Translations under genes and position numbers: made by a program
Shown here: piece by piece, positions 9,534 to 62,417 of the stretch
How the letters are laid out: every line of letters starts with the position of its first letter
Numbering within the stretch: position 1 is the first letter of the stretch
Assembly (NCBI GenBank): GCA_037447655.1
Contig: JBBHKE010001283.1
Span: 126,001-190,000, forward strand
Direction: 5' to 3'
Source of the DNA: Zygnema cylindricum
Lineage: Eukaryota > Streptophyta > Zygnematophyceae > Zygnematales > Zygnemataceae
DNA: 64,000 bases
The notes under the pieces: generated by a model
The model's database searches: none
The model's input: the letters and a program-made list of their open reading frames with translations, nothing else
What the model was told of the DNA's origin: nothing

Positions 9534-10579
9534 TGTAGAAATTAATGGTTTTAAAGTATTTTCTAGGTCAGAAATAAGAAAGAAGCCGAGGCAGTCTACC
9601 TCTAACTTCTCTCTCCAACTCTCAAACTTGTCGCAGTCACTGAGAAATTGGAGAGGAAGCTAGAGCCATGGCTACCTAGGCTATCCTGAGGTTTACGGGA
9701 AATATATATTTGGGGTTTATTAAGTAAAAAGATATGCGGCGGCCACAGGATTTGAACCTGGTACCTGCCGGACGGCAAGCTGCCGGTAGCCGGTAACCTT
9801 AACCGTTAAGTCTTGAAGTAGTGTTACGTACGATATAGTTTGATAATTATATAAACATTAATACGTAGGATAAATCATTTAACTATTAATGTTTACGGGA
9901 TACATAGAACCGGTAGTGTAAAAGTACGAATTGCGGTACGGATAAAAAAAAATCAATACCGCGCATTGATTTCGTAAGCGAAACAAATACCGCACATGTA
10001 TTTATTATGGCTCTGATCAAATGTTAATTTAATCGGACGGCCAAAATTAGCGCCAAGATCTCGAAAGAAGAATTCGGCGGTTTGAGGGCATCGCCACATC
10101 GGATGACACGTGGCGAAATTACATTGGATCGTGGTATCTCCGGAGATTACGGCACCAAATCGGAATATGACATGTGTTGACATTTAGGCCATGTTGTACA
10201 ATTTCCGTACATAAAGTACACCGGCGACTGTACTTTTGTTTACGGAAGAGAAATCTGATTGGTTCAGTACATCAGTAGATAGAGTCTGTGAGAGAGATAG
10301 GACTTAGAAAAATTAGGAGATAGGATCCTCTCTCCTAGAGAGCTTCTATACAAAAGGTCAACATTGACCCTCCATAACTTACTGCTCAGGGGAGCAAATT
10401 AAGAGATTCTTTTTGCTATCGACTCAGGGGAGTCTTGCCTTTTCACGAGTACACGTGGTCAGAGTTTTTGTCTGCCAGGGTTGCAGTTATTTTTGCTGAA
10501 ACACAAAGGGGTCAGGATTATCCTAGAGGCTTCTTGGAAGCTGTCCACTCTGAGGACTTATGGAGGTCTCTGAGTTTCA
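9534..10579 (+). mobile_element. solo Copia LTR (F/J-type) inserted in element B
   Basis: Begins TGTAGAAATT and ends GAGTTTCA. The element B sequence TCTGGTGCACCTCC is split so that GTGCA lies before it and CTGCA after it, a 5-bp target duplication with one mismatch. The 1046-bp body carries the antisense tRNA-like unit (9726-9822), the leader hairpins (GCTCAGGGGAGC near 10385 and GACTCAGGGGAGTC near 10421) and the CTTATGGAG start-codon region near 10558. No internal domain is present, so it arose by LTR-LTR recombination. Confidence 0.9.
9726..9822 (-). promoter_or_regulatory. tRNA-like Pol III unit in solo LTR
   Basis: On the reverse strand: D-arm-like TTAACGGTTAAGG near 9797-9809, perfect B box GGTTCAAATCC (9748-9758), then TTTTT (9726-9730). 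Antisense to the LTR. Not a functional tRNA, because no clean acceptor stem or CCA-ready end is visible. Confidence 0.7.
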
Positions 10580-12512
10580 CTGCACCTCCATGTCTTCCGC
10601 TGTTGCTAGACTGAGAAGTATGCGGACGGTGGGAAATCTAACCACCAGGGCAAAGGTTTCCTTGTTGTCGATTCCTTCTTTCTGTGTAAATCCTTTTGCC
10701 ACCAATCGGGCTTTGTAACGCTCAATGGTGTTATCCGGGTTCAGTTTTAATTTGAAAACCCATTTACAACCGATTGGTTTTCGGTTAGGTGGACAATCCA
10801 CTAGCTCCCAAGTATCGGCTGCCATAATTGAGGCCATCTCCTCATTGATGGTTGTCTTCCACCGGTTCCTTTCTGGACAAGTCATCGCCTCTCCATAAGT
10901 TTGAGGTTCATCTTGATGAGATAGTTTTGTTACCTTGTTATTAACCTGTTTTTCTTATAATGTTTTGCTACTTCTCCTTCCCCCCTCAAAATCTGTGGGC
11001 GGAATAGATGGTTCTCGTGGGTTACTTCAAAAAATCTCCGCTTCTCCCCTATCCCTTGATTCCGAAGCAATTTCCATCACGTCTTTCGCTTCGGGTAGAG
11101 TTGTCACTGGAGTTTCCGCAGCCGAGTCCTTTTCGGTCTGATTTGTCCCTGCAAGAATGTCATCTTCTCTAAAACCTGGATAGTTAGGAAGCTCAAAGTC
11201 ATCGGAATTTGCTGACTCAAATCTGATTTTTACTGTCTTTGTATACTTAAAGGCATCCACAAACTTTCCTTCATCCATAACTACTAGATGTTTTACTAAG
11301 ATTATATCTTCCCTTTTTAGATTGTAAACTCTATATCCTTTAACATCCTCATCATATCCTAATAAGTATCCCGGTTTTCCTTTAGGATCTAGCTTCCTAT
11401 TAGACCGATCTGTATCTAGACTGAATACTTGACTACCGAAAACCTTTAAGTGAGATATGTCTGGTTTTCGCCGGTCCATTTCTCATAAGGTGTTTGATTT
11501 TTTATAGCTGAGGTAAGAACTCTATTTTTGAGGTAATTAGCGCAATTCATTTCTTCTGCCCAAAACCTTTTTCCTATCTTCTTATCCGACAACATACTTC
11601 TAGCACTATCACTCAGTGTCCTATTTAATCGTCAAGCTACCCCATTCTGTTTCGGGTTTTCTAGAACTTTATTTTTGTGTTGAACTCCATCTTCCCTCAG
11701 AAAATCCTCAAACTGGTTAGAAGTATACTCTCCACCATTGTCACTCCTTACTCTCTTGATTGGAGTTTCATGGAGTTTTTGGCTCCATGCTTTATATTGT
11801 CTATAACAATCTTGAGCTTCTGACTTGTTTTTCAAAAAACACACCTTGGAATATCGAGACCTATCATCAATGATAGTCATCATAAATCTCTTCCTCCCCG
11901 GTGAGGACAATTTGGCCGGTCCCCAAATATCTGTGTGTACTAGACCTAGAATTTTTTCTCCCCTATAGGTGGTTGTTTTGGGAAAGGTCAATCTGTGTGC
12001 TTTACCTTGAGCACATCTACTATAATCACTTAGATTCTCACTCTCACTGAACTGAATTCCTTCCACCACTCCCATCTTTTTCATCTCTCTTAGCTTATCT
12101 AGATTCACATGCCCAAGCCTCTTATGCCACATCATTATATCATGAACACCAGCATAATAAAGTTTTTTCTTTTCATTGCTTAAAATCAACCTAAACATCC
12201 CTTGGCTACCTTTTTCAGCGGTGAAATAAACTTCCTCCTCTAAAATAGCAGTAAAGACTCCTTTCCTAGTGCTACAATCAAAACCCTTCTCATCTAATAC
12301 AGACGTAGAGATGAGGTTTTTGTTCAGCTCTGGAATAAACAATACATCGGAAAATGTAACTATGGATGTCTTTCGTTCTACCAATACTTTCAGATCTATC
12401 GATCCTACAAGAGTAGTAGTGACTATCCTCCCATCCTCGTACTCTATCTCTACGGTGGGAATCTTTCTTATCTTAGTGAACAAGTGTTTATCCTATCACA
12501 TGTGCATGGAGG
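10580..12512 (-). pseudogene. Copia element B, protease-integrase-RT 5' part
   Basis: The reverse strand carries RT N-terminal sequence ([21 protein letters not shown] near 10700-10765), the acidic linker (11027-11200) and integrase C-terminal KGYRVY near 11325-11345. The integrase core and GAG-pre-integrase domain form a 283-codon open stretch (11632-12483) with HKRLGHV, HTDIWGP, RSDNGGEYTS and a PKQNGVA ending. The protease is cut near 12490-12512, immediately upstream of its MHMC motif, where an LTR of opposite make-up begins. Gag is absent. Several frameshifts lie between the blocks. Confidence 0.85.
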
Positions 12513-13230
12513 TGCAATTCTGTGTCCTCCATTGGACCACAGAATACAGGAAGCCTCTAGATAGTATTTAGCTAACCCACTTCAAGACACAACCACTGCT
12601 GTCCAAGAAGGCAAAATGAAAGTTTGATTCCACCCCTATGCAGCCTGGACTCCCCTGATTCTGTAGCAAAAAGAATCAGTGAAAACGGACAACCATCCGA
12701 TAAGTTATGAGGCAATAAAAATGCCAATTTGTACAAACTCTCAAAGGGAGAGGTGATTACCTACCAAAAATTTTCTAAGTCCTGATTCCCTCTAATAACT
12801 TCTATCTACTGAAGTACGGACCAATCAGATTACTGTACCGTACCAAAAAGTACTACTGCCTGTGTACCTTTTGTACGACCTATGTACAACAAGGCTATTT
12901 AGCGGACGCGTGTCTACTTTTCACACGTCCGTACATTCCTCGGAATTCTCATGACTGAATGTCATCCCTCCACGTGGCTCTAGGTCATGCCACGTCACAA
13001 AACGCCAAAGTGACCACTTCGAGNNNNNNNNNNTACTGTCGACTTTCTATCGGATGTATATATCTGAGAGAGTTCCTCTCTCCATGGTTTTTTGAAAAAC
13101 AAAATCCTTAACTGCAAAAACTGCCACTTTCTAAATATGGCGGCAGCCATGGCGCGCCTTTGATCCTTACTCTCTTTCTTTAAAACAAAACTAAATAGGG
13201 AAGTGAACTATTAATTACCTCTTTTCAACA
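12513..13230 (-). mobile_element. Copia LTR in reverse orientation, interrupted by the assembly gap
   Basis: On the + strand it starts TGCAATTCTGTG and ends CTTTTCAACA, the reverse complement of an LTR of Copia-1 type (Copia-1 LTRs begin TGTTGAAAAG). The start-codon hairpin is present: TTCTGTG(G)TCC-AATGGA-GGACACAGAA on the reverse strand. The part that should hold the tRNA-like unit falls in or next to the 10-N gap. It abuts truncated element B without its gag, so either B lost its 5' interior or this is a separate insertion. Confidence 0.75.
13024..13033. other. assembly gap (10 N)
   Basis: Ten N characters. The true size is unknown. It lies inside an LTR, consistent with repeat-driven assembly failure. 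Confidence 1.
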
Positions 13231-14237
13231 GTAGGTCTATTAGACTTAAGAAGTTTTTTGGTACCTCTCTCCTTGAGAGAGTCTATATATGTAGGCTATC
13301 TTTCAGCTGTCATAACAAAACGCTCAAAAGGAAAAAATTAACATTTCCTTTTGCGTTTGGCCTAGGGGAGCTTTGTCTTCATAGTGGTGAAGTTAGTTAT
13401 GTGAAGTATCTACCTGGGTGGGAGTTATTAACAACAAAAGTCAAGCAGGGCAATACTATCCAAGAAGAATTTTGAAGCTGTGCATTTTGTGGGCTAATGC
13501 AGTCCACATTATTTCAAGTTATAGGCCCACCGTCAAGGGTGCCCATTTTTGATGGATTTGACTTCATCTATTAGGGGATGATGATGGAAGGAGCTCTTTT
13601 CAAAAAGCATCTGTGGGGCATAGTGTCTGGACACATTTGATGCCTGATGCCTCTGGCTTTTGAGGAGTTCGGTTCTCCAAATCCTTAATAGTTGGCAGGT
13701 CTACAGTAAAGATAGCATGAAAGAAAGAGGCCGATGGAAAAAGAGTTGTCATGGATTGAGACAAAGAGGATAACATAGAAGACAACCTCGGGTCACTCTT
13801 GTGATGAAGACCTCGCTAGCAACAATTCAGACGAGGGAGAACACTAAAAAAAGTGGCACTACAAAAATATTGTGGCGAAACACCCTGGACTATCTATGGA
13901 TTGAATGACTGAAAATAAACACTCTAATGATGAAGCTGTTTGATGAGTATTGAAACATTATAAATAAATTTTAGGATCTAAGAGATATGAAGTGGAAATG
14001 GGATGACATAGTGGGTATGACTCAAGTAAAAATGAGTACCATAGAGTTGAGGCGAAGGAGTCATAACCTGCAAACATTAGTTGTTACGATTGGCTGGCGA
14101 AAGCATGAAGAGCAAATAGGAGAAATACCTATCATAACTTTTTTAGAAAATGACGAGGCGGTTGAAGAACTAATTGACAGGGGAGAGGAGCTCGGAGAAG
14201 TGGAGTGTGCCATTTTTGCAAAAAACTAGGGCATTAT
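13231..14237 (+). pseudogene. Copia element D: partial 5' LTR and gag remnant
   Basis: 13231-13516 is the R/U5 part of an LTR (CTCTCTCCTTGAGAGAG, CTAGGGGAG hairpin arm) ending ATTTCA. A mutated primer-binding site AGTTATAGGCCCACC follows at 13517-13531. Gag follows: GPPSRVPIFDG-like start with KHLWGIVSG near 13600, then a badly deleted middle. WDD-VGM and STIELRR sequence lies at 13990-14060 and the first half of a zinc knuckle at about 14208-14237, where element E1 begins. It meets the reverse LTR at 13230/13231 head to head. Confidence 0.75.
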
Positions 14238-19993: not shown

Positions 19994-21031
19994 TGTTGGA
20001 ACTACTAGATTTATAGGGTATTTTCTAGGTCTAAATGGATCAGTAAAATAGGAAAAAGGAAAGGGCAGACAGCTTGCCTCCACCTCCTCTCTAGCCACCA
20101 TACTGTCAGTAGTCATTGAAGGATAAAGAGGGTGGTTAAGCTAAGGTTATCCTGATTCAACAGGGAAGCTAGAGCCATGGCTGCCTATGCTCCTTCTAGA
20201 ATTCAGAAGGCAGATCCTTGGTAAACTTACCAAAAGGATTGACGGACCCATGATTAGATCCTAGTACCTACCATCTGTCAAAGTAGCCGTTAGTCTTACC
20301 CTGTAGTCTAAGACCAGTGTTGAAGTATATGGGGTACGATAGCTACTTAAAGATGACGAAAAAGAGAAGTTCGATTTACTGACAAATGGACCACAATCAC
20401 ACAGCCACAGTTAAAAATAGAATTACACCGGGAATGTACTACTTGTATTTTTAACGGCTATAAATTAAGGCCGACATTAATCTAACGACGGGGAAAGAAG
20501 CCGGCATCGCGGAATGGTCGATTTGGCGGTTTTTCGGTCACAACCACAACGGGTGACACGTGGCAGCATGACATTGGATGACGGCATCTCCGAGACATAT
20601 TATGGCGAACCCGGATATGGTAGGCGTCGTCTTTCTCGCCATATCGTACAATGGCCGTACAGAAAGTACTTCGGACTAAGTACCTTTCTGTACTGTACAC
20701 TCAATTGATTAGTTCCGTACATCAGTAGAAGAGGGTTTAGAGAGGGGTTTAGGACTTAGAAAATTAGAGATAGCCGCCTCTCTCTCAGAGAGCTTTTGTA
20801 TAAAAGGGTCATCTTTGACCATTGATAATTACCTGCTCAGGGGAGCAAATTCAAGGATTCTTTTTGTGGCAGACTCAAGGGAGTCAACCCTTCCAAGGGG
20901 TGCAATCTGATCAGTCTGTATTCTGTCAGGGTGTCAGCAATATTCAGATAAAGCTCAAATAAATTGAGGTTATCCTAGAGGCTTCTAACATGCTCCCTAC
21001 TCTGAGTACCTATGGATGTCTCAGAGTTGCA
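19994..21031 (+). mobile_element. 3' LTR of element A2
   Basis: Starts TGTTGGAACTACTAG just after the polypurine tract and ends CTCAGAGTTGCA. Contains TTTTCTAGGTC near the start, the antisense tRNA-like unit, a TATA-like sequence near 20810, hairpin GCTCAGGGGAGC near 20835, and ACTCTGAG/CTCAGAGT arms around a TATGGA start-codon loop (about 20999-21028). The downstream flank CACGG is element A3 sequence, not a target-site copy I can pair. Confidence 0.85.
20232..20320 (-). promoter_or_regulatory. tRNA-like Pol III unit in A2 LTR (decayed)
   Basis: TTTT on the reverse strand (20232-20235), a TTGACGGAC arm and opposed ATCTGTCAA arm (20239-20281), and B-box-like GGATCTAATC (20252-20261, one departure from consensus). 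The A-box side is eroded. Confidence 0.55.
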
Positions 21032-23531: not shown

Positions 23532-24521
23532 TGCAATTATGTGTCCTCCATTAGAATACAGAATTCAAGAAGCCTCAAGATAGTTTTTAACTAACCCACT
23601 TTCAGCCACAACCATTACTGCCCAAGTAGACAAATTGATAATTGGCTGCAACCCTGTGCAGTTTAGACTCCCTTGAGTCCGTAGCAAAAAGAATCACTAA
23701 AAACGGCCAACTAACCGGTTAGTTATGAAGTGGCAAAGATGCCAAGTTTACACAAAACTCCCTACTGACCGAATTCTCTAAGTCCTAAACCCCTCTCATA
23801 ACCACTATTTAATGACGTACGAACAATCAAACGACTGTAAAGTAAAGAAAGGTATTAGTGCCGATGTACATTTTGTACGGCTTGTGTACGGCAAGGCCAT
23901 TGAGTGGACGCGTGTCCGCTTTTAACTCGTCCTTTTGTTCTCCAAAATTCTTGCAACCGAATGTTATCTCTCTACTTGACGCCAATCACACCATGTCAAA
24001 AAACCGCCAAGGTGACCATTCCGAGATTTTGGGAGCGATATATGCCGTCATATCATAAACCGACATTTAATATTAGCCGTCGAAACAAATGTCTCATTCA
24101 TTTTTTTCGTGCGAGAAAATATTTCTACTATATATTACTTAATTCTATGTTCTTTCATTTGTCATTTCGTTAATCGAATTTAGGATCAAAACACAGTTTA
24201 AATAAATATCACACCCTATGTATGTTTACGAACTCTTACGACAGACTGGTTAGAGCTAATGGCTACGCCTCGCTTTGCCGATTAGAGGTTCGAGTCCTGC
24301 CAGACTCAACCTTTTGTTGAGAGTGACATAAGTCACTCTTTAGTCCTACCTGTTCAACTAGGACAGCCATGGCTCAAGCACCCTCTCAATCCTTTAGTGA
24401 CTACAACAAGTATGGTGGCTAGAGAGAGGAGGTGGAGGAAGGCTGTCCACCCTTTCCTTTTTCCTATTTTACTGATCTATTTAGACCTAGAAAATAACCT
24501 ATAAATCTAGTAATTTCAAAA
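23532..24521 (-). mobile_element. 5' LTR of element A3
   Basis: On the + strand begins TGCAATTATGTG next to the reverse primer-binding site (GGGCCCATAACC, 23520-23531) and ends near CTAGTAATTTCAAAA, the eroded complement of the A2 LTR start. It carries the GACTCCCTTGAGTC hairpin near 23668 and the tRNA-like unit. It was inserted into E2 at AGCTTCAGCAAG. No paired target duplication is available because the other end of A3 is lost. Confidence 0.8.
24238..24315 (+). promoter_or_regulatory. tRNA-like Pol III unit in A3 LTR
   Basis: A-box/D-arm CTGGTTAGAGC (24246-24256), perfect B box GGTTCGAGTCC (24287-24297), TTTT (24312-24315). Spacing is tRNA-like. GTTTAAATAAATATCACACC lies just upstream (24196-24215). 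Antisense to its LTR. Confidence 0.75.
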
Positions 24522-31648: not shown

Positions 31649-31785
31649 TGTTGAAAAGAGGTAATTAATAGTTCACTTCCCTATTTTAGTTTCGCCTTAA
31701 AGAAAGAGAGTGAGGACCAAAGGCGCGCCATGGCTGCCGCCATATTTAGAAAGTGGCAGTTTTTGCAGTTTAGGGTATTTTGGCT

Positions 31786-31866
31786 AAAATGATGCCTAGG
31801 TCTAGATTTGAACCTATGACCTCTAGATTATTTATAGCCCTACGCCTTAACCATTAAGGCGTTACG
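31786..31866 (-). promoter_or_regulatory. tRNA-like Pol III unit, Copia-1 5' LTR
   Basis: On the reverse strand: D-arm CGCCTTAATGGTTAAGGCG (about 31843-31861) whose ends pair, containing TGGTTAAGGCG, which fits A-box TRGYNNARNNG. B box GGTTCAAATC is at 31805-31814 and TTTT at 31786-31789. The block TTTATATATTTATGAAACCC lies upstream (31887-31906). An antisense RNA of about 80 nt is predicted. T-arm pairing is poor, so it is a promoter fossil or ncRNA gene rather than a tRNA. Confidence 0.75.
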
Positions 31867-32309
31867 AAACGATACACGTGACGGGTTTCATAAATATATA
31901 AACATTAACGAAACAGCTAATTAACAGCAGATTAACCAAAAGGAGCAATTTCTGCATGTACGCGAATCTGAACCGTGTAAAATATGTTTTGATCGGACGG
32001 TCGGCATTATAGCCGCCACGCGAAGTGAGCCTTTTGGCGGCATACGGATATAGCGTCACGGGGTGCCACGTGGCGCCACATTATTTGATACCGGAGAAGA
32101 TGGGAGGAGGAACCATGGCTTCCGATATGACAGGTGTCACCTTGTAGACCTTGTCGTACAATGGTTGTACAATAAGTACATCGCTCATTGTACTTTCTTG
32201 TACTTTATAGTGTTTCTATTGGACTAGGGTTTAATAGTAGGTAGTCGTGAGTAGGCAGACCGAGACTTAGTAATATTTAGGTACCTCTCTCTCTAAGAGA
32301 GCTTGTAAC

Positions 32310-32315
32310 TATAAA
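32310..32315 (+). promoter_or_regulatory. TATA box of Copia-1
   Basis: TATAAA at the same LTR position where the I and K LTRs have TATAAATGG and others TATA-like sequence. Transcription would start about 30 bp downstream, near the first GC-rich hairpins, so most of these would be in the genomic RNA leader. Confidence 0.65.
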
Positions 32316-36956: not shown

Positions 36957-36961
36957 GAATT

Positions 36962-43724: not shown

Positions 43725-45067
43725 TGTTGATATTTGGGTATTTTCTAGGTCATTACTAGATAAGAAAAGAGTAGAGGCAGTCCTGCCTCTGACTCCCATC
43801 TCCAAGCCCCCACACTTGTTGTAGTCACTGAAGGCTGGAAAGGGAGCTAAAACCATGTCTGCCTAAGCTCTCCGGAGAGACAGGTGTAGATAAATATAGA
43901 TTTACTAAAAGGAACGTTGACGGACCCAGGAATTGATCCTGGCACCTGCCGTCCGTCAAGTGTCACGTAGCCGCCAGGTTTTATCCGTTAAGTCTAAGAC
44001 TAGTGCTAGACTATGTAGGGATTGATAAATATATAAACACATACAATTTGAAATATTCATTTAACGGTGCGAGCTGATTCTTAGTACATAGATACAGTAG
44101 TACGAATTACGGTACTTCACGAAACTGATACCGCGCATTTGTTTCGACGGCGAAACAAATACCGCGCACATAATTTTGACGGCAATAATTGAATGCTGGA
44201 TTTAATCGACGGCCGCGATGCGAGCCGAGATTCCAAAATGGCCGACTTGGCGTTTTCTAGCGCCGCCACTCTGGATGACACGTGGCAACTTCATACAAGC
44301 TTACGGAATTTCCGGAACGGCACAAAACAAATCCGGGAATGACAAAAGTCGCATTATGGTGATTTCGTACATTGTACGTACAGAAAGTACACCGGCACCT
44401 GTACTTTCTTGTACGGTACCGTTTATCATACGTGGCATGACCTGGAGCCACGTGGAGAGATAATATTTGACAGCACGAATTCCGGGAAGTAAAATAACGA
44501 GTCCGGATAAGACACATGCTGGTTTTTGGCCATGTCGTACGATGGCCGTACAAAAGGTACACCGGCACCTGTACCTTTATGTACTTTACAGTCTTGTCAT
44601 TGGTTCGTACTTTAGTACTAGGGGGCTTAGAGAGGGGTTTTAGGTCTTAGAATTTTTTTGGTAGGTAGCTGCCTCTCCCAGAGAGCACCTTGTATAAATG
44701 GCAAACTTTGACCAGCCATAATTATCAATTCAGTTGACCAATTCTAGTGATTCTTTTTGCTGCGGACTCAAGGGAGTCCAGGCTACACAGGGGCGTAGTC
44801 GGTCATACTATTTGCTTGCCAGGGTGGCTGCATTTCTAGGGGAAAGTCAAAGTGGGTGAATGTGTCCAAAACTCATATTCTAACTTTGCATTCTGTGGTG
44901 GAACTGAGCACACGGAAAGTCTTATTTCACAGGGGTGAAGCTGTAATGGGGTTCTGATTGTCAAAGGGTCAATCATTTAGGTTTATATCTAGTTGGAGTC
45001 GGCACTATCTAGATTAGCTTCTTTTGATCTGCGAATTCTGTGTGGCAATGGAGCTCATAGAATTTCA
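43725..45067 (+). mobile_element. solo LTR I inside the J LTR
   Basis: TGTTGATATTTG to AGAATTTCA, 1343 bp, flanked by exact GTGGT duplications (43720-43724 and 45068-45072). Has TATAAATGG near 44694, the ACTC/GAGT hairpin near 44765, an enlarged U5 with an extra TTCAC-AGGG-GTGAA stem (44926-44939), and the start-codon hairpin TTCTGTG-TGGC-AATGGA-GCTCATAGAA. An internal stretch near 44270-44460 appears partly repeated at 44430-44590 (CACGTGG and GTACACCGGCACCTGTAC blocks occur twice), which explains its extra length. Confidence 0.9.
43907..44005 (-). promoter_or_regulatory. tRNA-like Pol III unit in LTR I
   Basis: TTTT on the reverse strand (43907-43910), an 8-bp stem TGACGGAC/GTCCGTCA enclosing CCAGGA-ATTGA-TCCTGG, and B box GGATCAATTCC (43929-43939) in the apical part. 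D-arm relic TTAACGGATAAAACC near 43978-43992. Confidence 0.7.
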
Positions 45068-45072
45068 GTGGT

Positions 45073-45705
45073 ATATCCGGATTTGCTCCCCTAATCCCCG
45101 GAGATGTCGCGATCCAATGTCATTCAGCCACGTGTCATCCGATGTGGCGATGACGAAAAACCGCCGAAATCCTCTTCTGCGATCTCGGCATTCATTCCGG
45201 CCATCCGATTAAATGTAGATTTAATCGTAGTCGTAATAAAAACCTGCGCGGTATTGGTTTCGCTATCGAAACAAATGCACGGTACTAGTTTTTTGTCCGT
45301 ACCCTAATCCGTACATTTACATAAACGAATGTATGTATCCTGTAAGTAGTTGCGTTAAATGGGTTTGTCAGCGTAGTGATGTTTAAGTATTTATCAAACA
45401 CAATATACTCTAACACTAGTCATAGACTAAATGGTTAGAGCAACCGTCTACCGGTGGCTTTGACGGCCCGTAGGTACCAGGATCAAATCCTGTGTCCGAC
45501 AGCTATACTTTTAGTAAATCAAATAATCTACTACCCGATCTCTCAGGATAGCATAGGCATCCATGGCTCTTGCTTCATATCCGACTTTCAGTGACTGCAA
45601 CAAAGTTGGGAGTTGAAGAGAGAAGTTAGAGGCACGCTGCCTTGGCTTCTTTTTTGCATTTTATTTTAGACCTAAAAAATGCTAAACGAACCATCAATTT
45701 CTACA
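45073..45705 (-). mobile_element. 3' LTR of element J, second part
   Basis: Continues with ATATCCGGATTTGC and ends CAATTTCTACA. The reversed polypurine tract CTCCCCTTATTTTC follows at 45706. Combined J LTR is about 1045 bp. Confidence 0.85.
45421..45512 (+). promoter_or_regulatory. tRNA-like Pol III unit in J LTR
   Basis: A-box/D-arm AATGGTTAGAGC (45430-45441). A T-arm with real pairing (CAGG-ATCAAAT-CCTG) has B box GGATCAAATCC at 45480-45490. TTTT is at 45509-45512. Upstream TATTTATCAAACAC near 45388. Antisense to the LTR. One of the best-preserved units. Confidence 0.75.
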
Positions 45706-48906: not shown

Positions 48907-50088
48907 TGTTGTTATTTGTGTATTTTCTAGGTCTGTAATAGGATAGAAAAAGGCAGAGGCATTCTGTCTCTAACTCCCCTCTCCAAGCCCCCTCACTTGT
49001 TGTAGTCACTGAAGGCAGGATAGGGAGCTAAAGCCATGGCTGCCTATGCTCTCTAGAGAAGACATGGGGTAAATTAGTAAGACTTACCAAAACTTACTTG
49101 ACGGACACAGGAATTGATCCTGGCACCGACCGTCCGTCAATCTGCCCTTAGCCGGTGACTTTAGCCGTTTAGACTAGAGCTAGTGTTACGACTTATGGGG
49201 TTTGATAAATATTTAAATAGTTACACGTAGACTAGTTTAATTAACTGGAAATGTATACGTATTGCATAGATACAGTTATAGATAGTACGGAGTACGGATT
49301 TCTTTATTGAAACTGATACCGCGCATTTGGTTCGACCGCGAAACAAATACCGCGCGTCTATTTTCAACGGCTTAAAATGTAGCCGGATTTGATCGGACGG
49401 CCGCGATAGGCGCCGCGATCACGGGATATGTACTTTTGGCGGTTTACCCTGATCGTCACATAGGATTACACGTGGCACGTTAACATTTGACTGCGGCGCC
49501 ACCGGAGATTACGGGAACAAATAGATATATGACATGTGTCGACATTTCAGTTATATCGTACGATTGTCGTACAGAAAGTACACCGGCACCTGTACTTATC
49601 TGTACGGTACAGTAAAGTGATTGGTGTCGTACGTCAGTAGATAGGGTCTTAGAGTGAGAATAGGACTTAGAATATTTTCACTAGGTAGTCGCCTCTCCCA
49701 GAGAGCATCTTGTATAAATGGCTAACTTTGGGCAGCCATAACTATCAATATACTTGACCATTTTCAATGATTCTTTTTGCTGCGGACTCAAGGGAGTCCA
49801 CGCTACACAGAGGTGTAGTCGGTTAGAGTTTTTGTCTGCCACGGTGGCGGTATTTCTAAGGGAAAGTCAAAGTGGGTGAATGTGTCCAAATCTCATATTC
49901 TAACTTTGCATTCTGTGGTGGAACTGAGCACACGGAAAGTGTTATTTCACAGGGGTGAATCTATATTGGGGTTCTGACTGTCAAAGGGTCAGTCATTTGG
50001 GCTTATATCAACTTGGAGTCGGCACTATCTAGATTAGCTTCTTTTGGATCTGCATACTCTGAGGGCCAATGGAGGGCTCAGAGTTTCA
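48907..50088 (+). mobile_element. 5' LTR of element K
   Basis: TGTTGTTATTTG to GAGTTTCA, 1182 bp. By eye about 4% different from the 3' LTR over the first 600 bp. It has TATAAATGG near 49711, hairpin CTACAC-AGAG-GTGTAG (49803-49818), the enlarged U5, and start-codon hairpin ACTCTGAG...AATGGA...CTCAGAGT (50056-50084). Confidence 0.9.
49089..49175 (-). promoter_or_regulatory. tRNA-like Pol III unit in K 5' LTR
   Basis: Reverse strand: D-arm relic TAAACGGCTAAAG, outer stem TTGACGGAC/GTCCGTCAA (arms 49098-49106 and 49132-49140) enclosing CAGGA-ATTGA-TCCTG (49108-49122), B box GGATCAATTCC (49110-49120), TTTT (49089-49092). Clearest example of the nested stem. Confidence 0.75.
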
Positions 50089-51041
50089 GGTTATGGGCCC
50101 ACCATCTAGGGTGCCTATGTTTGATGGAAGAGGCTTCACTTATTGGTCGTTTACAATGGAGGGATTGCTTTTCGAGAAGGACTTATGGGGAATTGTTTCG
50201 GGACAAGTGAGATGTCCGCCACTTGGCTTTGGAGGAGCTTACTATGGAGAATCATCTGAGGCTGCCCAGAATATCATCCGGAGTTTAGATGCAACGGAAG
50301 GTGAAGGGAAAAACATTTCCGTGGATGGGGAAATGGGGGAGAAGGAAAAAGGGACACCTATGGTGAGGGGAGTTAGGTTCTCAGCTATGGTACCACATGT
50401 ATGGATTAAAACTGAAGAAAATGACAGAAAAATATGGGAATACAAAAGCACTATAGCAAAACATCTCATACTTAGATATGTGTCTAAGTCTATAGCTATC
50501 GCTCTTTTAAGTCTAACCAAGTCTTCAAAGATATTGGAAGCACTAAGTCAGATTTATAAGAGTGAGATTTATTCAGAGGCAGCAATTAGTAAAACAGGAA
50601 ATAGAGGCCTATGTTTATAAAGGCGATAGCATGATAGAGTTTTGCAAAGATATTGTTGCGTTATATGTTGAGCTAGCTAGTGCGGGATATGTAGAATCTG
50701 AGGAGAGTAAGATTAATACACTACTTATGAAACTCCCAGATGAGTACGAAAACATCATTTGTCGTATGCAGGCACTTGATGGTTCCTCATGGACTTGGAG
50801 CTTTACCATGGGGATAATTCTTGTGAGGGAAAGCACTTTGGAGCTTCGAAGGGGAAGTGACAGGGTGAATGTATTTACAGCTGGTGGTGATTGGCAGAAG
50901 CGTGATGAGAGGAACGGCGGTGATTGGCGGAAGCGTGATGAGAGGAACGGCGGTGACGAGCAGAATTGTGATGAGAGGATGAAAGAGAAAGGTAAACCTT
51001 TGATAAAAAGAGACGGACAGGAAAAGACACGGGAGGTTTGA
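50069..51041 (+). pseudogene. Element K gag, two frameshifts
   Basis: ATG in the AATGGA loop, then QVMGPPSRVPMFDGRGFTYW and LWGIVSGQVRCPP, colinear with Copia-1 Gag. The frame ends at 50620 but the homologous sequence (QLVKQEIEAYVYKG...LMKLPDEYENIICRMQ...STLELRRGS) continues in another frame from about 50575 to 51041. A short basic/acidic repeat (RDERNGGDW) follows. A second shift near 51035 leads into the zinc knuckle of the next frame. Element L keeps this region in one frame, so the shifts look like mutations rather than programmed recoding. Confidence 0.8.
50089..50103 (+). promoter_or_regulatory. primer-binding site of K
   Basis: GGTTATGGGCCCACC, identical to that of Copia-1 and likewise translated as part of Gag. 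Confidence 0.8.
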
Positions 51042-51982
51042 AAAAAGGAGTTTGCTTCTTTTGTAGGGAACCGGGTCATTTTATGGAAGAATGCCCTTGT
51101 TTGGAAAAACTTAGAAGTTGGAATGTGGATGAGGAGGAAAAAGGGGAAGAGGAGAAAGAGGATGAAGATATTTTAGAGCTTCTCCGGATTAGTTGTATGG
51201 GGAAAAGAGAAAAGCACACAGAAATTGCACAAAGGCAGCAGTGTGCTTTTGGAGGTATAAGGGAAGTAAAGAGAGAGGAGGTACTTGAGGATGTCGAGGA
51301 GTGTAAAGTGTATGACTTAGAAATGAGAAAGTCAGATCTAGGATCCATAAGTGAAAACGGGAAAGATATAATTAATGAGGATGATTTTATAGGTATTTTG
51401 GAATTAGAAAACTGGTCGAAAAGGGAGACATCAACGGATTCCGAGGAAAGGGGAGAAGTGAAACTAGAAGGGGTTTTTAAAGATAAGGGAGAAGAGGAAT
51501 ATTTAATGAAAGGTTTAGGGGAGGAGAAATACTTATTGGGAATAAATTTAGAAAGAGAGAGTGGAAAGAAATCCATGGGAGAGAGTGAGGAAAGTTCAAT
51601 TTTTGCGGGTAATGGGTTTGACATCGCTAAAGGGAGTGATGGTATTTATAAAGGTGTGCCTGTAAAAGGGGTAGCATCTGGGTGTATGTTGCAGATTGGA
51701 GATGGGGCAGGCTGTTTGGATCGCAAGAGGGAAATCGGTTTGTGTGTGGATGAAAAAGTGATGAGGTGGATAAAATCTTTGCTCAGATTTATGAAAAGTG
51801 GGATGTTAAATAAAATGTGTGATGCAATTATTATTTCAGTTCAATTACTGCACTGTGTTAAATACTTAAGTTTTATGAAAGGAAAAGGAAAAAGGAAAAA
51901 GAAAAAGAAAAAGGGGAGGAGGTGTTTGTATACTTGTTTGTGGAAATTGAAAGAAAAAAAAAAAAAAAAAACTAGAAAATAA
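51038..51982 (+). CDS. Element K zinc-knuckle protein with RT/RNase H fossils (314 aa)
   Basis: Residues 6-19 form the Gag zinc knuckle CFFCREPGHFMEEC. After an acidic stretch comes QQCAFGG, equivalent to KCAFGG before the Copia-1 protease. The frame then jumps to short pieces of pol in the right order. KVYDLEMRKSD corresponds to the IN C-terminal RVYDLKKRD, and GLGEEKYLLGINLERE to the RT-end DLGEAKYILGIQMERD. ASGCMLQIGDGAGC and RWIKSLLRFMKSG correspond to RNase H TTGYVLQIGSGACC and MWVKSLLEELGFMKSG. Protease DSG, the integrase triad, YVDD and the RNase H SDAS and EAEY motifs are absent. The C-terminus is Lys-rich, from an A/G tract before the polypurine tract. The same layout is found in element L with in-frame indels. 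It probably originally continued Gag. Confidence 0.75.
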   Translation: MKKGVCFFCREPGHFMEECPCLEKLRSWNVDEEEKGEEEKEDEDILELLRISCMGKREKHTEIAQRQQCAFGGIREVKREEVLEDVEECKVYDLEMRKSDLGSISENGKDIINEDDFIGILELENWSKRETSTDSEERGEVKLEGVFKDKGEEEYLMKGLGEEKYLLGINLERESGKKSMGESEESSIFAGNGFDIAKGSDGIYKGVPVKGVASGCMLQIGDGAGCLDRKREIGLCVDEKVMRWIKSLLRFMKSGMLNKMCDAIIISVQLLHCVKYLSFMKGKGKRKKKKKKGRRCLYTCLWKLKEKKKKKTRK

Positions 51983-51988
51983 GGGGAG

Positions 51989-53171
51989 TGTTGATATTTG
52001 TGTATTTTCTAGGTCTGTAATAGGATAGAAAAAGGCAGAGGCATTCTGCCTCTAACTCCCCTCTCCAAGCCCCCACACTTGTTGTAGTCACTGAAGGCTG
52101 GATAGGGAGCTAGAGCCATGGCTGTCTATGCTCTCTAGAGAAGACAAGGGGTATATTAGTAAGACTTACCAAAATTTACTTGACGGACACAGGAATTGAT
52201 CCTGGTACCGACCGTCCGTCAATCTGCCTTTCGCCAGTGACTTTAGCCGTTTAGACTAGAGCTAATGTTACGACTTATGGGGTTTGATAAATATTTAAAT
52301 AGTTACACGTAGACTAGTTTAATTTACTTGAAATGTATACGTATTGCATAGAGACAGTTATAGATAGTACGGAGTACGGATTTCTTTATTGAAACTGATA
52401 CCGCGCATTTGGTTCGACCGCGAATCAAATACCGCGCGTCTATTTTCAACGGCTAAAAATGTAGCCGGATTTGATCGGACGGCCACGATAGGCGCCGCGA
52501 TCACGAGATATGTACTTTTGGCGGTTTACGGTGATCGCCACATAGGATTACACGTGGCACGTCAACATTGGATTGCGGCGCCACCGGAGATTACGGGAAA
52601 AAATAGATATGTGACATGTGTCCACATTTCAGCCATATCGTACAATTGTCGTACAGAAAGTACACCGACACCTGTACTTATCTGTACGGTACAGTAAAGT
52701 GATTGGTGCCGTACGTCAGTAGATAGGGTCTTAGAGTGAGAATAGGACTTAGAATATTTTCACTAGGTAGTCGCCTCTCCCAGAGAGCATCTTGTATAAA
52801 TGGCCAACTTTGGGCAGCCATAACTATCAATTTACTTGACCATTTTCAGTGATTCTTTTTGCTGCGGACTCAGGGGATTCCACGCTACACAAGGGTGTAG
52901 TTGGTCAGAGTTTTTGTATGCCAAGGTGGCTTTATTCTTAAGGGAAAGTCAAAGTGGGTGAATGTGTCCAAATCTCATATTCTAACTTTGGATTCTGTGG
53001 TGAAAATGACCACACAGAAAGTGTTATTTCACAAAGGTGAATCTATATTCGGGTTTTGATTGTCAAGGGGTCTGTCATTTGGGTTTATATCAACTTGGAG
53101 TCGGCACTATGTAGATAAGCTTCTTTTTGGATCTGCTTACTCTGAGGGCCAATGGAGGTTTTAGAGTTTCG
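51989..53171 (+). mobile_element. 3' LTR of element K
   Basis: Follows polypurine AATAAGGGGAG. TGTTGATATTTG to GAGTTTCG (last base G instead of A), 1183 bp. The flank GCCCC does not match GGAGG before the 5' LTR, so the target duplication is lost or the end has recombined. Confidence 0.9.
52171..52257 (-). promoter_or_regulatory. tRNA-like Pol III unit in K 3' LTR
   Basis: Same nested stem (TTGACGGAC at 52180-52188, GTCCGTCAA at 52214-52222), B box GGATCAATTCC and TTTT (52171-52174), despite about 4% divergence between the two LTRs. Confidence 0.7.
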
Positions 53172-57263: not shown

Positions 57264-58321
57264 TGTAATTGTGTGACCTCCATTGGTCCACAGAATGTCC
57301 AACTTATATGAAGCCTCTAGGATAATATTTGCACTTCTGGTCTTAGCAAAGAATAAGTGCCACCTTGGCACGCAAAAACTTTGACCAACTACACACCTGT
57401 GTAGCGTGGACTCCTTTGAGTCCGCAACAAAAAGAATCTATGAAATTGCTCCCTTGAGCATTAAGTTATGGTTGTTCAATGACAGCGAATTTATACAGAT
57501 GGCCTCCGGAAGATAGGGCTTTCAAAAAAATTCTAAGTCCTAAGAACCTACTCATATCCCCTCTAGACCAATCAAATTATCATTCACTACATAATCTAGT
57601 AGCCATCGTACTTTTTTTACGGAATAATGCAGCACCACTCTCGGTTTGCTACGTGTCGAATAAATCGTCGCCGTTTTATCCCTTTTTCATCTAGCATCCT
57701 GTAAGATGGTGCCATGTGTTAGTTTTCCTCCAATTTGGCGAAGTGCTTCCAAAAAGTCTTTCCGGCATGCTAGCACTCATGCTTGCCGTCGGTTCATAAT
57801 TCGGTGATTAATGTTAGTCGTTCGATCCACGCGCCGCGCCGAATAATCTTTGTTAACCGTTGAAATTTTACGACCGTCGTTCCGTGTTGACCGTTGAATT
57901 TTGAGATCGGTCATTCCTTGTTGACGGTTTCTGTTGATCGCGAACGACATTTGATTTCGTCCGTTGAAATTAGATGCCGTTTCGTTTTTTTTCGTATGGT
58001 AAAGTATTTTGTGTGGTATTGTATGTTTCATGTTCATTTTGTTTCGTATGCGTCGTCGCGTCACTATTTATATATTTATCACATATGATATATGTAACGC
58101 TTCATGAAGCCCTATTGGATAAAGCAAACGGCTACATCGTACGGCAGTTATCAAGAGGTCACAAGATCAATTATTGATTCGACAGTCTACCTTTTGCCGG
58201 GGGTGTTTCTTTTGCCTGTCTTCTTATCTGCCTGAGAAAATTGACAACCTTGTCATGGTTGCTTGGCAGTTCTTAGTGATTGCGAAAAGTATGAGAATTG
58301 TAGAATAACCATAGAATAACA
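57264..58321 (-). mobile_element. 5' LTR of element N
   Basis: + strand left end TGTAATTGTG beside the primer site. The probable right end is ATAACA at 58321 (reverse complement TGTTATTC). Contains CTACAC-ACCT-GTGTAG near 57391, GACTCCTTTGAGTC near 57409, GCTCCCTTGAGC near 57448 and start-codon hairpin TGTGGACC-AATGGA-GGTCACA on the reverse strand. A block with several CCGTTGAAATT-type repeats (57870-57970) is peculiar to it. Confidence 0.7.
58100..58195 (+). promoter_or_regulatory. tRNA-like Pol III unit in N LTR
   Basis: A-box-like TATTGGATAAAGC (58113-58125), B-box relic AGATCAATTA (58164-58173), TTTT (58192-58195). Antisense to the LTR. More eroded than the others. Confidence 0.5.
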
Positions 58322-58596
58322 AAAGAGATAGAGTAAAAAATACCCTTTTTAAGATCCACTGAAATGGAAGTTGGAGTTTAAGGTATACCAGGGTTCTTTT
58401 TAGGGTTTGATGATCACTCGGAAGGGTATAGAGTGTATGACAAAAAGAGAGATAAAAGTCTTGCTAGCTTAGAACATCATAGTGATAGATTAGGGAAAAG
58501 AAGTGGATGTACGTAATCTGCATACATATGAAAAGAAAGATTGAAGTTGTTGAAATTTATGTATTTTCTAGGTCTGTATTGGAAAAATAAATAGAG
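58322..58596 (+). pseudogene. fragment O: integrase C-terminal piece plus LTR stub
   Basis: 58345-58546 reads KWKLEFKVYQGSFLGFDDHSEGYRVYD with stops, equivalent to the KGKPGYLVGYD...KGYRVYD block after the integrase core. A 50-bp stub TGTTGAAATTTATG...TTTTCTAGGTC (58549-58590) matches the first bases of an I/K-type LTR and ends at the next LTR. Confidence 0.65.
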
Positions 58597-59644
58597 TGTT
58601 GAAAAGAGGTGACTAATAGTTCACTTCTATATTTTAGTTAGAATGTAAAGAGAGAGAAAGAGAGGACCAAAGGCACGCCATGGTTGCCGTATCATTTAGA
58701 AGGAGGCAGAATGAATTAGAAAGTATTTTACTAGTTTTAGCAAAATACGGCCGTCGGCCGTTTTGAACCGGGGTCTGTAGGCTACTAAATAGACCAACGC
58801 CTTATCCATTAAGTTACTATCGAAACGATACACGTGAGATGTTTTACGCATATTTAGCTATTGATTCAAAGGACTAATTCGCAGCAGACTTACGAAAACG
58901 CCACTTAATCAATTGATGCAGGGAAGCGAATCGAAGCCGTATAAATACAATTGATCGGACGGCCACCATTACAGCCGCCACTCGCAATAAGCTTTCGGCG
59001 GCCTTTGGGGATAGCGTCACGCGGTGCAACGTGGCGCCACATTATTTGACACCGGAGAAGATTGGAGGAGGAACCATGGCTCCCGATTTGGCACATGTCA
59101 CCTTGTAGACCATGTCGTACAATGGCCGTACGATAAGTACATCGCCCATCGTACCTTCTTGTACTATATAGTGTTCCTATTGGACTAGGGTTTAGTAGTA
59201 GGTAGTCATGAGTAGGCAAAATAAGACTTAGTGATATTTCGGTACCTCTCTCTAAGAGAGCTTGTAACTCTAAAGGTCATCTTTGACCAGCCATAACTTA
59301 CTGCTCGGGTGAGCAAATTCAGTGATTCTTTTTGCTACAGACTCGGGGGAGTCTAGGCTACACAGGGGTGTAGTTGGTCAGAGGTGTTTGCGTGTCAGGG
59401 TGGCACTTATTCAGTTGGAAAGTCAAAGTGGGGAATACTGTCCAAAACACATATTCATGCTTTGCATTCTGTGGTGGAACTGAGCACACACAAGGTCTTA
59501 TCTTCACAGGGGTGAAGTTATATTGGGGTTTTGATTATCAAGGGATCATTCATTTGGGTTTATATCAACTTGGAGTAGGCACTATCTAGATTAACTTCTT
59601 TTGGATCTGCGAATTCTGTGGGCAATGGATCCCATAGAATTTCA
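58597..59644 (+). mobile_element. chimeric solo LTR (Copia-1 type then I/K type)
   Basis: TGTTGAAAAGAGG to AGAATTTCA, 1048 bp. Up to about 59330 it follows the Copia-1 LTR (AGGCACGCCATGG block, TACATCGCCCATCGTAC, TGCTCGGGTGAGCA). From there it follows LTRs I and K (CTACAC-AGGG-GTGTAG, GTGGTGGAACTGAGCACAC, TTGGAGTAGGCACTATCTAG). Flanks TAGAG and GAAGT do not match, so the target duplication is not preserved or one end is recombined. Confidence 0.8.
58742..58820 (-). promoter_or_regulatory. tRNA-like Pol III unit in chimeric LTR
   Basis: Reverse strand: TTAATGGATAAGGCG D-arm (about 58798-58812), B box GGTTCAAAAC (58760-58769), TTTT (58742-58745). Confidence 0.7.
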
Positions 59645-60995
59645 GAAGTGTTGATAATAACTTTTTGGAAGAAAGTCCTATATTTTACAAAAAAAATCAA
59701 ATCTTTTATACCAAATGAGTGACCTTTCACTAACACACATAGTAACTCTCCTCCACCAGAAAGAGGATTTGTTTGACTTGAAAGAATCGCAAATAATCCT
59801 CTATCACAAGCTAAACATGAATCCCAAGCAAGATCACAAGTAGCAGAAAGGAAGACTCAACCCTCTCTACCACCTACCAAATTTCTAGATGGAGTCAAGC
59901 GAAGTGCACGACTCAGGTGCACGACTTAAGGGAGCAAAAGCAACTTTCGCTCTATCAGCACACATAAAAGAACCTTTAAGGGTGCACGACTTAAGGGAGC
60001 AAAAGCAAATTTTGCTCTATCAGCACACATAAGAGAACCTTTAAGACTAACTGAAGACTTTTCATGTCTTGAAAGAGAGCATTGGATGGAATAAATAGAT
60101 GAGGAAATGGAGTCTATGATGGAGGCCCAAACTTAAGATCTGGTGGAACTTTTTCCAAAAAGAAAGGCCATTGGGAGTAAATGGGTGTTTGAATTAAAAT
60201 TTAAACACCATAGAAAGATACAAAACTCGATTGGTAGCTAAGGGATATAATCAAAAAGAGGGGATAGATAATGAGGAAATTTTGTTAACAATTGTCCATC
60301 TGTCTGCAACTTACTTATATTAGTTGTTATAGAGGATTTTGACATCCTCTAGGTGGATGTAAAGACTACCTTCTTGCATGGTGATTTAAAAAAAAATATA
60401 TACATGAAGCAACCAGAGGGGTATGATGAGAAAGAGGGGAAGGAAAATCTTTTATATACTTTTAAAATATTTGTATAACACGAAACAAGCGTCGAGGCTT
60501 GGAACCGAAAGTTAGATGAGTTTTCAGAAAGCCTAAGATTCACTAAAATTAGCTTTGACTATTCAGTTTACGTGATGTGTGGTGATAATCTTGATGATGT
60601 GCTATTTATTGTTGTGTATACAAATGATGTGCTACTAATGAGTAGGAAAAAGGAATTTCTAGAGTTATACACTCTTTTAATTCACAATTTGCAATGAAAG
60701 ATTTGGTTTAGGCAAAATACATCTTTGGAACACAAGTAGAATTAGATTGAAAAAAGAGAATAATCACGCTAACTCAGAAAGAAGCGATAGAGAACATGTT
60801 GGAAAAATTTGGCTTGGCTGACGCCAAAGGTTTTGCCACTCCTATAGAGTATAGGCAAAAACTTGAAAAAATAGAGCATGAGTTTGGAGTCTTGATAGAT
60901 AGGAAACAAAAGGCAAAAGAACAAAAATATATGTCTTAAGTTCCCTATCGCCAAATGTTAGGAAGTTTGTTGTATTTCATGAATTGTACTATCGT
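59645..60995 (+). pseudogene. Copia element P: linker, RT and start of RNase H
   Basis: A distinct, heavily mutated subfamily. REPLRLTEDFSCLEREH...EEMESMMEAQT (60030-60135), GSKWVFELK (about 60175), [12 protein letters not shown] (about 60235), LHGDLKK-IYMKQPEGYDEKEG (60380-60440). KLDEFSESLRFTKISFDYSVYV (60510-60575), YTND for YVDD (60619), LTQKEAIENMLEKF (60770-60810) and MLGSLLYFMNCT (60955-60990), where it ends. Many stops and frameshifts. Confidence 0.8.
59916..60045 (+). repeat. 65-bp tandem duplication in element P
   Basis: 59916-59980 and 59981-60045 both begin GGTGCACGACTTAAGGGAGC and end AACCTTTAAG. Only a handful of differences. The unit is not a multiple of three. Confidence 0.9.
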
Positions 60996-61297
60996 TTTTA
61001 TCTTACACCTTTAGAATTAGACAAGAAATATTGGCATAAAATGAAGGATCTTTGATTTTTTTTTTGACAATTTTTAGGTTTTCTTTTAATGGTAAGTCGA
61101 GTGAGAAAAGTAGAAAAAACGAAATCGGAAACCCTAGCGTAAAGTTCTTGAATCAGTGACGTTGACGTTGTCAAAGTCAGCATGACATCATAATGTCACC
61201 AAACCTTAAACATCTACAATTTCACAAAATACTGACGTCTACAACTGTCGTTGTTTTTGTTGGCGTCACTTAATCGTCGGAAGTTTGTTGTCGTCTT
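60996..61297. other. no assignable feature
   Basis: AT-rich sequence between truncated RNase H of P and the L LTR. Contains a T10 run near 61055 and TGACGT-type repeats near 61157-61245. Nothing recognised. Confidence 0.4.
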
Positions 61298-62417
61298 TGA
61301 AATTCTATGGGCTCCATTGCCACACAGAATTCGCATATCAAAAGAAGCTAATCTAGATAGTGCCGACTCCAAGTTTATATAAACCCAAATGATTGACCCC
61401 TTGACAACCAGAACCCCATTAAAGCTTCACCCCTGTGAAACAAAACTTTTTCTGTGTGCTCAGTTCCACCACAGAATGCAAAGTTAGAATATGTGATTTG
61501 GATACATTCACCCACTTTGACTTTCCCTTAGAAATGCAGCCACCCACGCAGGCAAAACTCTGATCGACTACACCCTTGTGTAGCTTGGACTCCTCTGAGT
61601 CCGCAACAACAAAAATCACTGAAACTAGTCAATTGAGTTGATAATTATGGCTGGCAAAAGTTTGCCATTTATACAAGATGCTCTATGGGAGAGGCGACTA
61701 CCTACCCAAAAATATTCGAAGTCCTAAACCCCTCTCTAAACCTTCTAGTACTGAGGTACTGACCAATCGCAAGACTGTACCGTACAAGAAAGTACAGATG
61801 CCGGTGTACTTTCTGTACGGACAGTTTACGACGTCGCCATTATGCGATATTTGTCACATTCGGATTTGTTTTCTTCAGTTCCGGAGATTTCGTAAACTTG
61901 TATGATGTTGTCACGTGTCATCCGGAGTGGCGAAGTCCGCAAACCGCCAAATTGTCCTTTCCACGGTCATCTGATTGATATCGGTATTTAACACGGATCG
62001 TCGAAACAAATGTCCGTACGATTTGTTTCGTCCGGTACTAATAGTACAACTGTTACTATGTCTAATAAACGGTAATCTAGTTAAATGGAAAATCCTACGT
62101 GTAGATGTTTATATGAATATCAAACCCAATATACCTTAGCACTAGTCCTAGACTAAACGGACAAAGCTACTGGCTACGGGTTACTTGACGGACGACAGGT
62201 ACCAGGATCAATTCTTGGGTTCGTCAAGTACCTTTTGGTACATCTACCTAAATCAACCCATGTCTTCTCTAGTGAGCTTAGGCAGCCATGGCTCTAGCTC
62301 CCAATCCAGCCTTTAGTGACTACGAGAAGTGTGGGGGCTTGGAGAAGGGAGTTAGAGGCAGGTTGCCTCTGCTCTTTTTCTATCATAATAGACCTAAAAA
62401 ATACTCAAATATCAACA
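61298..62417 (-). mobile_element. 3' LTR of element L
   Basis: Reverse-oriented: TGAAATTCTATGGG at left, ATATCAACA at right, followed by the reversed polypurine tract CTCCCCTTATTTTC (62418-62431). 1120 bp, I/K type with enlarged U5 and CTACAC-AAGG-GTGTAG on the reverse strand. Start-codon hairpin GGC-AATGGA-GCC within TTCTGTG/CATAGAA. Confidence 0.9.
62145..62236 (+). promoter_or_regulatory. tRNA-like Pol III unit in L LTR
   Basis: D-arm relic CTAAACGGACAAAGC (62152-62166), outer stem TTGACGGAC/GTTCGTCAA with one mismatch, B box GGATCAATTC (62205-62214), TTTT (62233-62236). Antisense to the LTR. Confidence 0.7.

Follow-up and report, generated by a model that had tools for sequence, protein, structure and literature searches.

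An antisense tRNA-gene-type module, a candidate RNA polymerase III unit, in the U3 region of nested Copia long terminal repeats from Zygnema cylindricum

The 64,000-nt stretch of Zygnema cylindricum DNA analyzed here (contig JBBHKE010001283.1, positions 126,001 to 190,000, assembly GCA_037447655.1; hereafter the window) is filled by a nest of Copia retrotransposons. We identified 14 copies of their long terminal repeats (LTRs), which were sorted by eye into six families, a (four copies), b (four), c (three), d, e, and f, with a mean LTR identity between families of 0.40–0.57, gaps included. The a2 and a3 copies are the LTRs of one element, and c1 and c2 those of another (the c element, 31649–37860, + strand), which has a gag-pol open reading frame (ORF), a half-tRNA-type primer-binding site (PBS), an LTR pair of 99.7% identity, and the target-site duplication (TSD) TGTAT. 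All 14 LTRs carry, within U3 and on the opposite strand, a module that we read as a candidate RNA polymerase III (Pol III) type-2, or tRNA-gene-type, transcription unit. From the sequence features described below, we give this reading a probability of roughly 0.7.

The LTR directions were determined by alignment to LTRs of fixed direction, which were anchored by TSDs with TG..CA ends (TGTAT in the c element, GTGGT in b1), by the orientation of the gag ORF in the c element, and by a AAGGGGAG-like polypurine tract ahead of several LTR starts. The modules, measured from TATA to TTTT, are distributed as follows. In the a family, a1 (9727–9855, − strand; B box GTTCAAATC) lies in a + strand LTR at ~9534–10578 that is solo by context; a2 (29198–29327, +; − LTR ~28475–29544) has the B box GATGAAATC with one mismatch common to a3 (40829–40958, +; − LTR ~40108–41175), where the D-arm GG is mutated to TG; and a4 (45382–45512, +; B box GATCAAATC) occupies a − LTR at 45705–45073 with an apparent continuation at 43722–43314. 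The four b modules share the B box GATCAATTC: b1 (43907–44037, −) in a + solo LTR (43725–45067) inserted into LTR a4, b2 (49089–49217, −; + LTR 48907–50089), b3 (52171–52299, −; + LTR 51989–53170), and b4 (62108–62236, +; − LTR 61298–62417). Modules c1 (31786–31902, −; B box GTTCAAATC) and c2 (37107–37223, −) lie in the + 5′ LTR (31649–32541) and 3′ LTR (36970–37860) of the c element, and c3, the most diverged unit (58742–58858, −; B box GTTCAAAAC), in a + LTR at 58597–59645; a 30-nt, 9.8-bit match adjoining c3 was left out. The remaining modules are d (20232–20351, −; + LTR ~19995–21025; B box GATCTAATC, one mismatch), e (24197–24315, +; − LTR ~23534–24520; B box GTTCGAGTC), and f (58067–58195, +; − LTR ~57265–58361; B box GATCAATTA, one mismatch).

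The original prediction had proposed 14 tRNA-like units, always antisense and at one position in the LTR. We found all 14 units, and all of them (14/14) run antisense to their LTR. The common position was likewise borne out, at a measured offset of ~137–357 nt from the LTR start instead of 130–280 bp, several LTR ends being approximate. Two further LTR pieces keep the U3 start without a module. One (12513–13232) diverges at the module and then meets a 10-N gap (13024–13033), and the other (3879–3958) is truncated ahead of the module position.

Read in the antisense direction, the module consists of a TATA-like block (consensus TTTAAATA..TATC, absent from the original prediction), an A-N-C start-like motif ~28–31 nt past the first T of that block, a D-arm-like block (AGACT[TA]AA[CT]GG.TAAGGC), a variable stretch, a B box, and TTTT. 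As had been proposed for each unit, the D-arm-like block and the B box are present in 14/14. The B box fits GWTCRANNC perfectly in 10 units and with one mismatch in four (94 of the 98 specified positions fit), and its changes between families fall at the W, R, and N positions, seldom at the fixed ones. The TTTT also occurs in every unit, although 14–19 nt past the B box, not the 10–15 bp first given. The distance from TATA to the D-arm GG is 50–51 nt in all 13 units where it can be measured (a3 has no GG; in b4, two TATA matches overlap and give 51 or 49 nt), and that from the GG to the B box varies over 39–48 nt. In type-2 promoters, TFIIIB is placed at a fixed position and the A–B distance is tolerant, so a fixed TATA spacing and a variable GG-to-B geometry are expected.

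The TATA can also be read on the sense strand, as part of a conserved RNA polymerase II (Pol II) element that resembles a Pol III unit on the other strand by chance. Indeed, TATATAAAC or TATAAAC occurs at the module TATA in a1, b1, b4, c1, and c2, and a similar sequence in f. Among the 13 LTRs other than a4, eight contain another sense TATAAA-type box, at LTR position 662 (c1, c2), 745 (b4), 805 (d), 807 (b2, b3), 867 (f), or 969 (b1), and a1, a2, and a3 contain the TACAAAAGG form at 816–840; no clear sense TATA was seen in e and c3. These Pol II TATA-like boxes lie ~400–660 nt from the module and point in the opposite direction; in b2, for example, TATAAATGG (49713–49721, +) is ~500 nt away. 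Since a separate box is thus available, and the 60 nt that follow the module TATA on the sense strand show no notable conservation (0.32–0.46), we consider a sense-strand Pol II element the least probable of the explanations weighed here.

Matches to the consensus motifs are not unusual in this DNA. A loose scan of the window for A box, B box, and TTTT gave 98 matches, compared with 93.4 ± 12.4 in 20 shuffles. The same scan found a sense match somewhere in 6/14 LTRs, and shuffled LTRs contained an antisense match in 5.35/14 on average, with a maximum of 11/14 (200 rounds). The loose scan being no richer than the shuffled window, consensus matches alone prove nothing. The predicted enrichment of A and B boxes over shuffles hence failed in the loose scan and appeared in the co-location of the motifs. 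When whole columns of the U3 alignment were shuffled, which preserves the relatedness of the LTRs, the composite at one alignment column occurred in at most four LTRs (150 shuffles), compared with the observed 14/14, and the perfect B box with TTTT in at most two, compared with 10/14. The thresholds for these comparisons were set post hoc, after the units had been seen. The unusual feature is the co-location, not the consensus matching.

The conservation of the module was examined against its LTR surroundings. The TTTT is the sole run of four invariant columns in the 1420-column LTR alignment, in which columns beyond the end of the truncated LTR a4 cannot count as invariant. The first 420 nt include 29 invariant columns, 18 of which are inside the 127-nt module. 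We also built profiles from sliding segments of the LTRs with one family left out and used them to recover that family. For c1, the score was 27.5 bits at the module, 0 in segments ending by LTR position 218, and 0–1 at 299–491, and it climbed again toward R/U5. For f, it was 44.4 bits at the module, 0–2 before it, and 0–3.2 at 299–491; a module profile trained without f found f with 43.5 bits. The flanks of d and e are still recognized by the profiles, and these two families are hence not discriminating. The exception is c3, with at most 6.3 bits by the sliding profiles and 3.1 bits by a module profile trained without family c. In c1, c2, and f, the module forms an island within U3, being the only part of the first ~400 nt that the profiles of other families recognize. 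The units are homologous by descent, as they would be if an ancestral tRNA gene or short interspersed nuclear element (SINE) in the LTR had merely been inherited. However, on both sides of the module, the U3 of c1, c2, and f has become unrecognizable to the profiles while the module is still recognized, and such a passive relic is very unlikely. The retention of the module amid changed DNA suggests that the elements use the tRNA-gene machinery of the host.

An out-of-sample set was provided by 200 kb of the same 738-kb contig outside the window. The module profile found 28 places in it, 25 of them at E < 1e-4; the three weaker places were dropped, one of which (L024:3-52) completes a module split between loci L025 and L024. 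R/U5 profiles gave the LTR direction for 23 of the 25 modules, and all 23 are antisense; the remaining two are antisense to the adjoining U3 start. The expectation of a conserved position in a wider set of LTRs was confirmed from U3 starts found blind to the module, 22 of 27 of which carry the module 6–38 nt downstream. Another of these starts is at a locus end, with the module opening the next locus, and two are wrong-strand matches of 19–22 bits on real starts. Viewed from R/U5, an antisense module lies upstream in 22 of 29 places, three are near locus ends, and four are without it. At one of these four (L025:3124-3342), there is a module in the place's own sense, which was assigned to a neighboring LTR on the opposite strand.

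Several observations weigh against a Pol III unit. Plain mean identity between families, 0.34–0.65 in the module, 0.63 at LTR positions 121–140, and up to 0.76 in R/U5, does not clearly single out the module. The best match to the A box (TRGYNNARNNG) in the allowed range has no mismatch in 4/14 units, one in 4/14, and two in 6/14, and in five (a1, a2, a3, b1, d) it falls outside the D-arm-like block. Some copies are decayed, with the GG lost in a3 and B-box mismatches in d, f, a2, and a3. In the flanking set, the B box is perfect in 20/25 modules, has one mismatch in four, and is cut by a locus end in one, counts that are biased upward by the use of the module profile to find these modules. 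The TTTT is present in 20/25, and three of the five misses are decayed runs in uncut modules, the other two being cut by locus ends. The TATA–GG spacing there is 48–51 nt in 18/25 and otherwise 44, 59, 61, 63, 63, 81, and 97, as called automatically with several visible miscalls. Two of the 27 U3 starts lack the module, one being broken by a sequence gap and the other diverging at ~150–170 nt. Because the 3′ LTR copy lies across the path of the mRNA, a Pol II block there would hinder the element's own mRNA. Finally, an upstream TATA is reported at only 22–32% of angiosperm tRNA genes (PMC11700998).

From the observed sequence, position, orientation, and conservation of the module, we infer factor binding, transcription, and a role as follows. 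TFIIIC would recognize the A and B boxes and position TFIIIB on the TATA. Pol III would then start ~30 nt past the TATA and stop at the TTTT, giving an RNA of ~90–105 nt that points away from the Pol II promoter of the element. In the 5′ LTR, the Pol III unit and the Pol II promoter would thus form a divergent pair. For plant tRNA genes, the signals named are TATA and CAA motifs upstream, the A and B boxes, and poly(T) (PMC11700998).

The RNA that such a unit would produce does not appear to be a tRNA. The original prediction had described the units as tRNA-like, and this did not extend to the RNA level. ARAGORN found no tRNAs, and an Rfam search over the window gave no tRNA match at the gathering score or at E up to 10. 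The tRNA covariance-model search that had been proposed therefore yielded nothing at the gathering score; when four units were run singly against Rfam, there was one weak tRNA-family match, that of a1 to tRNA-Sec (22 bits, E 0.02 on 151 nt, below the gathering score). An alignment of the 14 units predicted a 4-bp T stem. The D- and T-stem pairing was 82.3%, compared with 81.4% with shuffled partners, without covariation; slid pairing controls were lower, as expected where the structure was read off the same sequences. RNAalifold predicted no pair for 34 modules, which comprise 13 of the 14 in the window (c2, a near copy, was omitted) and 21 of the 25 in the flanking set (two c copies and two cut modules were omitted); 26 of the 34 contain a perfect B box. 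A functional tRNA gene was ruled out by ARAGORN, Rfam, the pairing test, and the empty consensus fold. As the boxes are kept and no RNA fold is, selection appears to act on promoter elements at the DNA level, and the modules resemble Pol III type-2 units maintained as promoters and not as tRNAs.

Folded singly, the units gave z values from +0.33 to −3.27, below −2.25 in 5/14 (b1, b2, b3, b4, c2). A 9–10-bp hairpin around the B box occurs in b2, b3, and b4 (z −2.3 to −3.0; spans 49089–49219, 52171–52301, and 62105–62240), with the arms TTGACGGAC/GTCCGTCAA in b2 and b3; it is not common to all families.

A promoter kept for its DNA might serve TFIIIC alone, as a binding site without Pol III transcription of the kind known from yeast extra-TFIIIC (ETC) sites or insulator B boxes. 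The well-kept B box would agree with this, and yeast tRNA genes (tDNA) and ETC sites are reported to influence neighboring Pol II transcription (PMC4228148). A TFIIIC-only site would need neither a TTTT terminator nor a TATA at fixed spacing, and we regard it as improbable.

For the Pol III unit itself, our tentative proposal is that the assembled complex works in cis to keep the LTR open and to protect the Pol II promoter from silencing or from flanking read-through. Action in cis at the outer LTR edge fits a promoter that is conserved and a product that is not. Blocking of Pol II read-through and effects on neighbors are described for yeast Pol III complexes and TFIIIC sites (PMC4228148). 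The main alternative to the cis role, which we hold to be distinctly less likely, has the same promoter and a product that matters: an antisense RNA that anneals to the 3′ U3 in the mRNA, for copy-number control or as a source of small RNA. The 3′ LTR copy of the unit complements the part of the genomic RNA that separates the end of pol from R, and the TTTT would delimit a discrete RNA. Conservation is poor from box to box (between-family identity 0.34–0.41; b2 positions 219–248), and there is no common fold. Complementarity to its own RNA is automatic, however, so this poor conservation counts only weakly against an antisense RNA. The original prediction had also suggested targeting to Pol III loci, for which the insertions gave no support: the small sample includes one nested case, in which b1 is inserted in an LTR ~340 nt upstream of the putative a4 start, and the insertions of a1 and c fall in internal regions.

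A different use of a T-arm-like sequence is known from Ty3, in which U3 contains a stretch antisense to the primer tRNA and pairs with the TΨC arm of the initiator methionine tRNA (iMet) as the 3′ half of a bipartite PBS (PMC5371799). We made a preliminary comparison of 12 of the 14 units with two plant tRNA sequences, an iMet and an Arg type. The a, b, and d units score 12–17 against iMet, for which shuffles give ~7 ± 1.3, and c1 is also above its shuffles (11.5). A PBS-like sequence, GGTTATGGGCCCACC, directly follows the LTR in the c element (32542–32556) and also stands beside LTR e; the one beside LTR f differs slightly, and that of a3 also matches less exactly. This PBS appears to match the anticodon arm of iMet. 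These points would suit a bipartite PBS. However, c1, c3, and e are closer to an Arg-type tRNA (16, 16.5, and 13.5, compared with 11.5, 10.5, and 8 for iMet), even though c1 and e adjoin the same PBS, and f is weak to both (9 and 11). A half-tRNA primer, moreover, consists of the 5′ half and has no T arm, and the TATA, its fixed spacing to the GG, and the TTTT would be left unexplained. A bipartite PBS is consequently very doubtful. The priming decoy that had been proposed is likewise disfavored, since the c element combines an initiator-tRNA-like half-PBS with a module closer to the Arg-type tRNA.

An embedded SINE, another of the roles first suggested, is unlikely given the fixed position in 14/14, the LTR sequence on both sides, and the TATA inside the module. 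Plant tRNA-derived SINEs are described with degenerate A and B boxes (PMC9033089), a likeness to the modules; the modules differ in their fixed LTR position, their internal upstream TATA, and the lack of an A-tail or TSD of their own, marks that were looked for by eye, with no program search made. On position and structure, a tRNA-derived SINE insertion was set aside. Plant tRNA genes share with the modules the upstream TATA and start motif, the A and B boxes, and the poly(T) (PMC11700998), whereas no cloverleaf is recognized or maintained in the modules. The modules differ from the Ty3 PBS in their promoter geometry and terminator, and those of families c and e are not matched to the primer tRNA.

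That Pol III promoters can reside in LTRs is known from Cassandra (PMC10853983) and foamy viruses (PMC7104284). Cassandra, which the original prediction had cited, is the right kind of precedent: a plant LTR retrotransposon with a Pol III internal promoter, that of 5S rRNA, in its LTRs (PMC10853983). It is, however, presented there as a non-autonomous terminal-repeat retrotransposon in miniature (TRIM) whose own Pol II promoter was replaced by the 5S promoter, whereas here a Pol II-type TATA is retained alongside a unit of the tRNA type (type 2), and the c element is of full size with coding capacity. Rfam found no 5S match over the window, and this, together with the coding Copia element, rules out membership in Cassandra. 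Simian foamy virus has Pol III units with A and B boxes in the LTR U3, but these belong to an animal retrovirus and encode pre-miRNAs (PMC7104284); no conserved hairpin was found here. An open-access literature search, covering titles and the starts of abstracts, returned no tRNA-type or antisense Pol III unit in Copia LTRs, which is weak evidence of absence.

If the units work, full-size Copia elements would hold in one LTR both a Pol II promoter and, divergent from it, a Pol III unit of the tRNA type, in many genomic copies. This would bear on silencing escape in nested repeats, on the antisense control of retrotransposons, and on the annotation of "tRNA-like" repeats. More speculatively, and with a rather low likelihood in our estimate, this could be a Copia lineage with an active antisense Pol III gene as part of its life cycle. 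Its tRNA identity would be exchanged or re-tuned between families (iMet-like T arm in a, b, and d; Arg-like in c and e), following the tRNA promoters of the host in the way that Cassandra follows 5S genes, and the Pol III assembly would serve as a boundary or an antisense-RNA device.

The c element belongs to Ty1/Copia (Pseudoviridae), as indicated by the integrase preceding the reverse transcriptase (RT; RVT_2), the TG..CA LTRs, and the 5-bp TSD, features established for this element only. Its open frame of 1489 codons contains gag, integrase, and RVT_2 domains in the Copia order. The gag frame has an in-frame ATG within the 5′ LTR and reads across the LTR end and the PBS (METTEFQVMGPPSRV..., 32520–32610), and there may be no untranslated stretch after the LTR. 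The PBS suggests half-tRNA or internal priming, which is described for Drosophila copia and Ty5 (PMC5371799). The other RT pieces in the window have 37–87% protein identity to the RT of the c element. An RT piece searched against viral_contigs gave only one weak match, 41% over 41 residues, and a PBS pattern search for related elements elsewhere gave none. One LTR subfamily had at least 43 matches from the 40 candidates scored, of 4923 first-look candidates in the 353-Mb genome.

The b-family LTRs at 48907–53170 enclose only ~1.9 kb, possibly a shortened, non-autonomous element. Two LTR pieces meet head-to-head near 13232 (12513–13519), one of them containing the 10-N gap noted above, and this arrangement is possibly an assembly join. 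Elsewhere on the contig, two features point to a plant host: a partial GRAS-domain match was seen in one of six reading frames tested, and a tandem array of snoZ122/U31b-type C/D small nucleolar RNAs with a spacing of ~300 nt lies at L020:840-3649.

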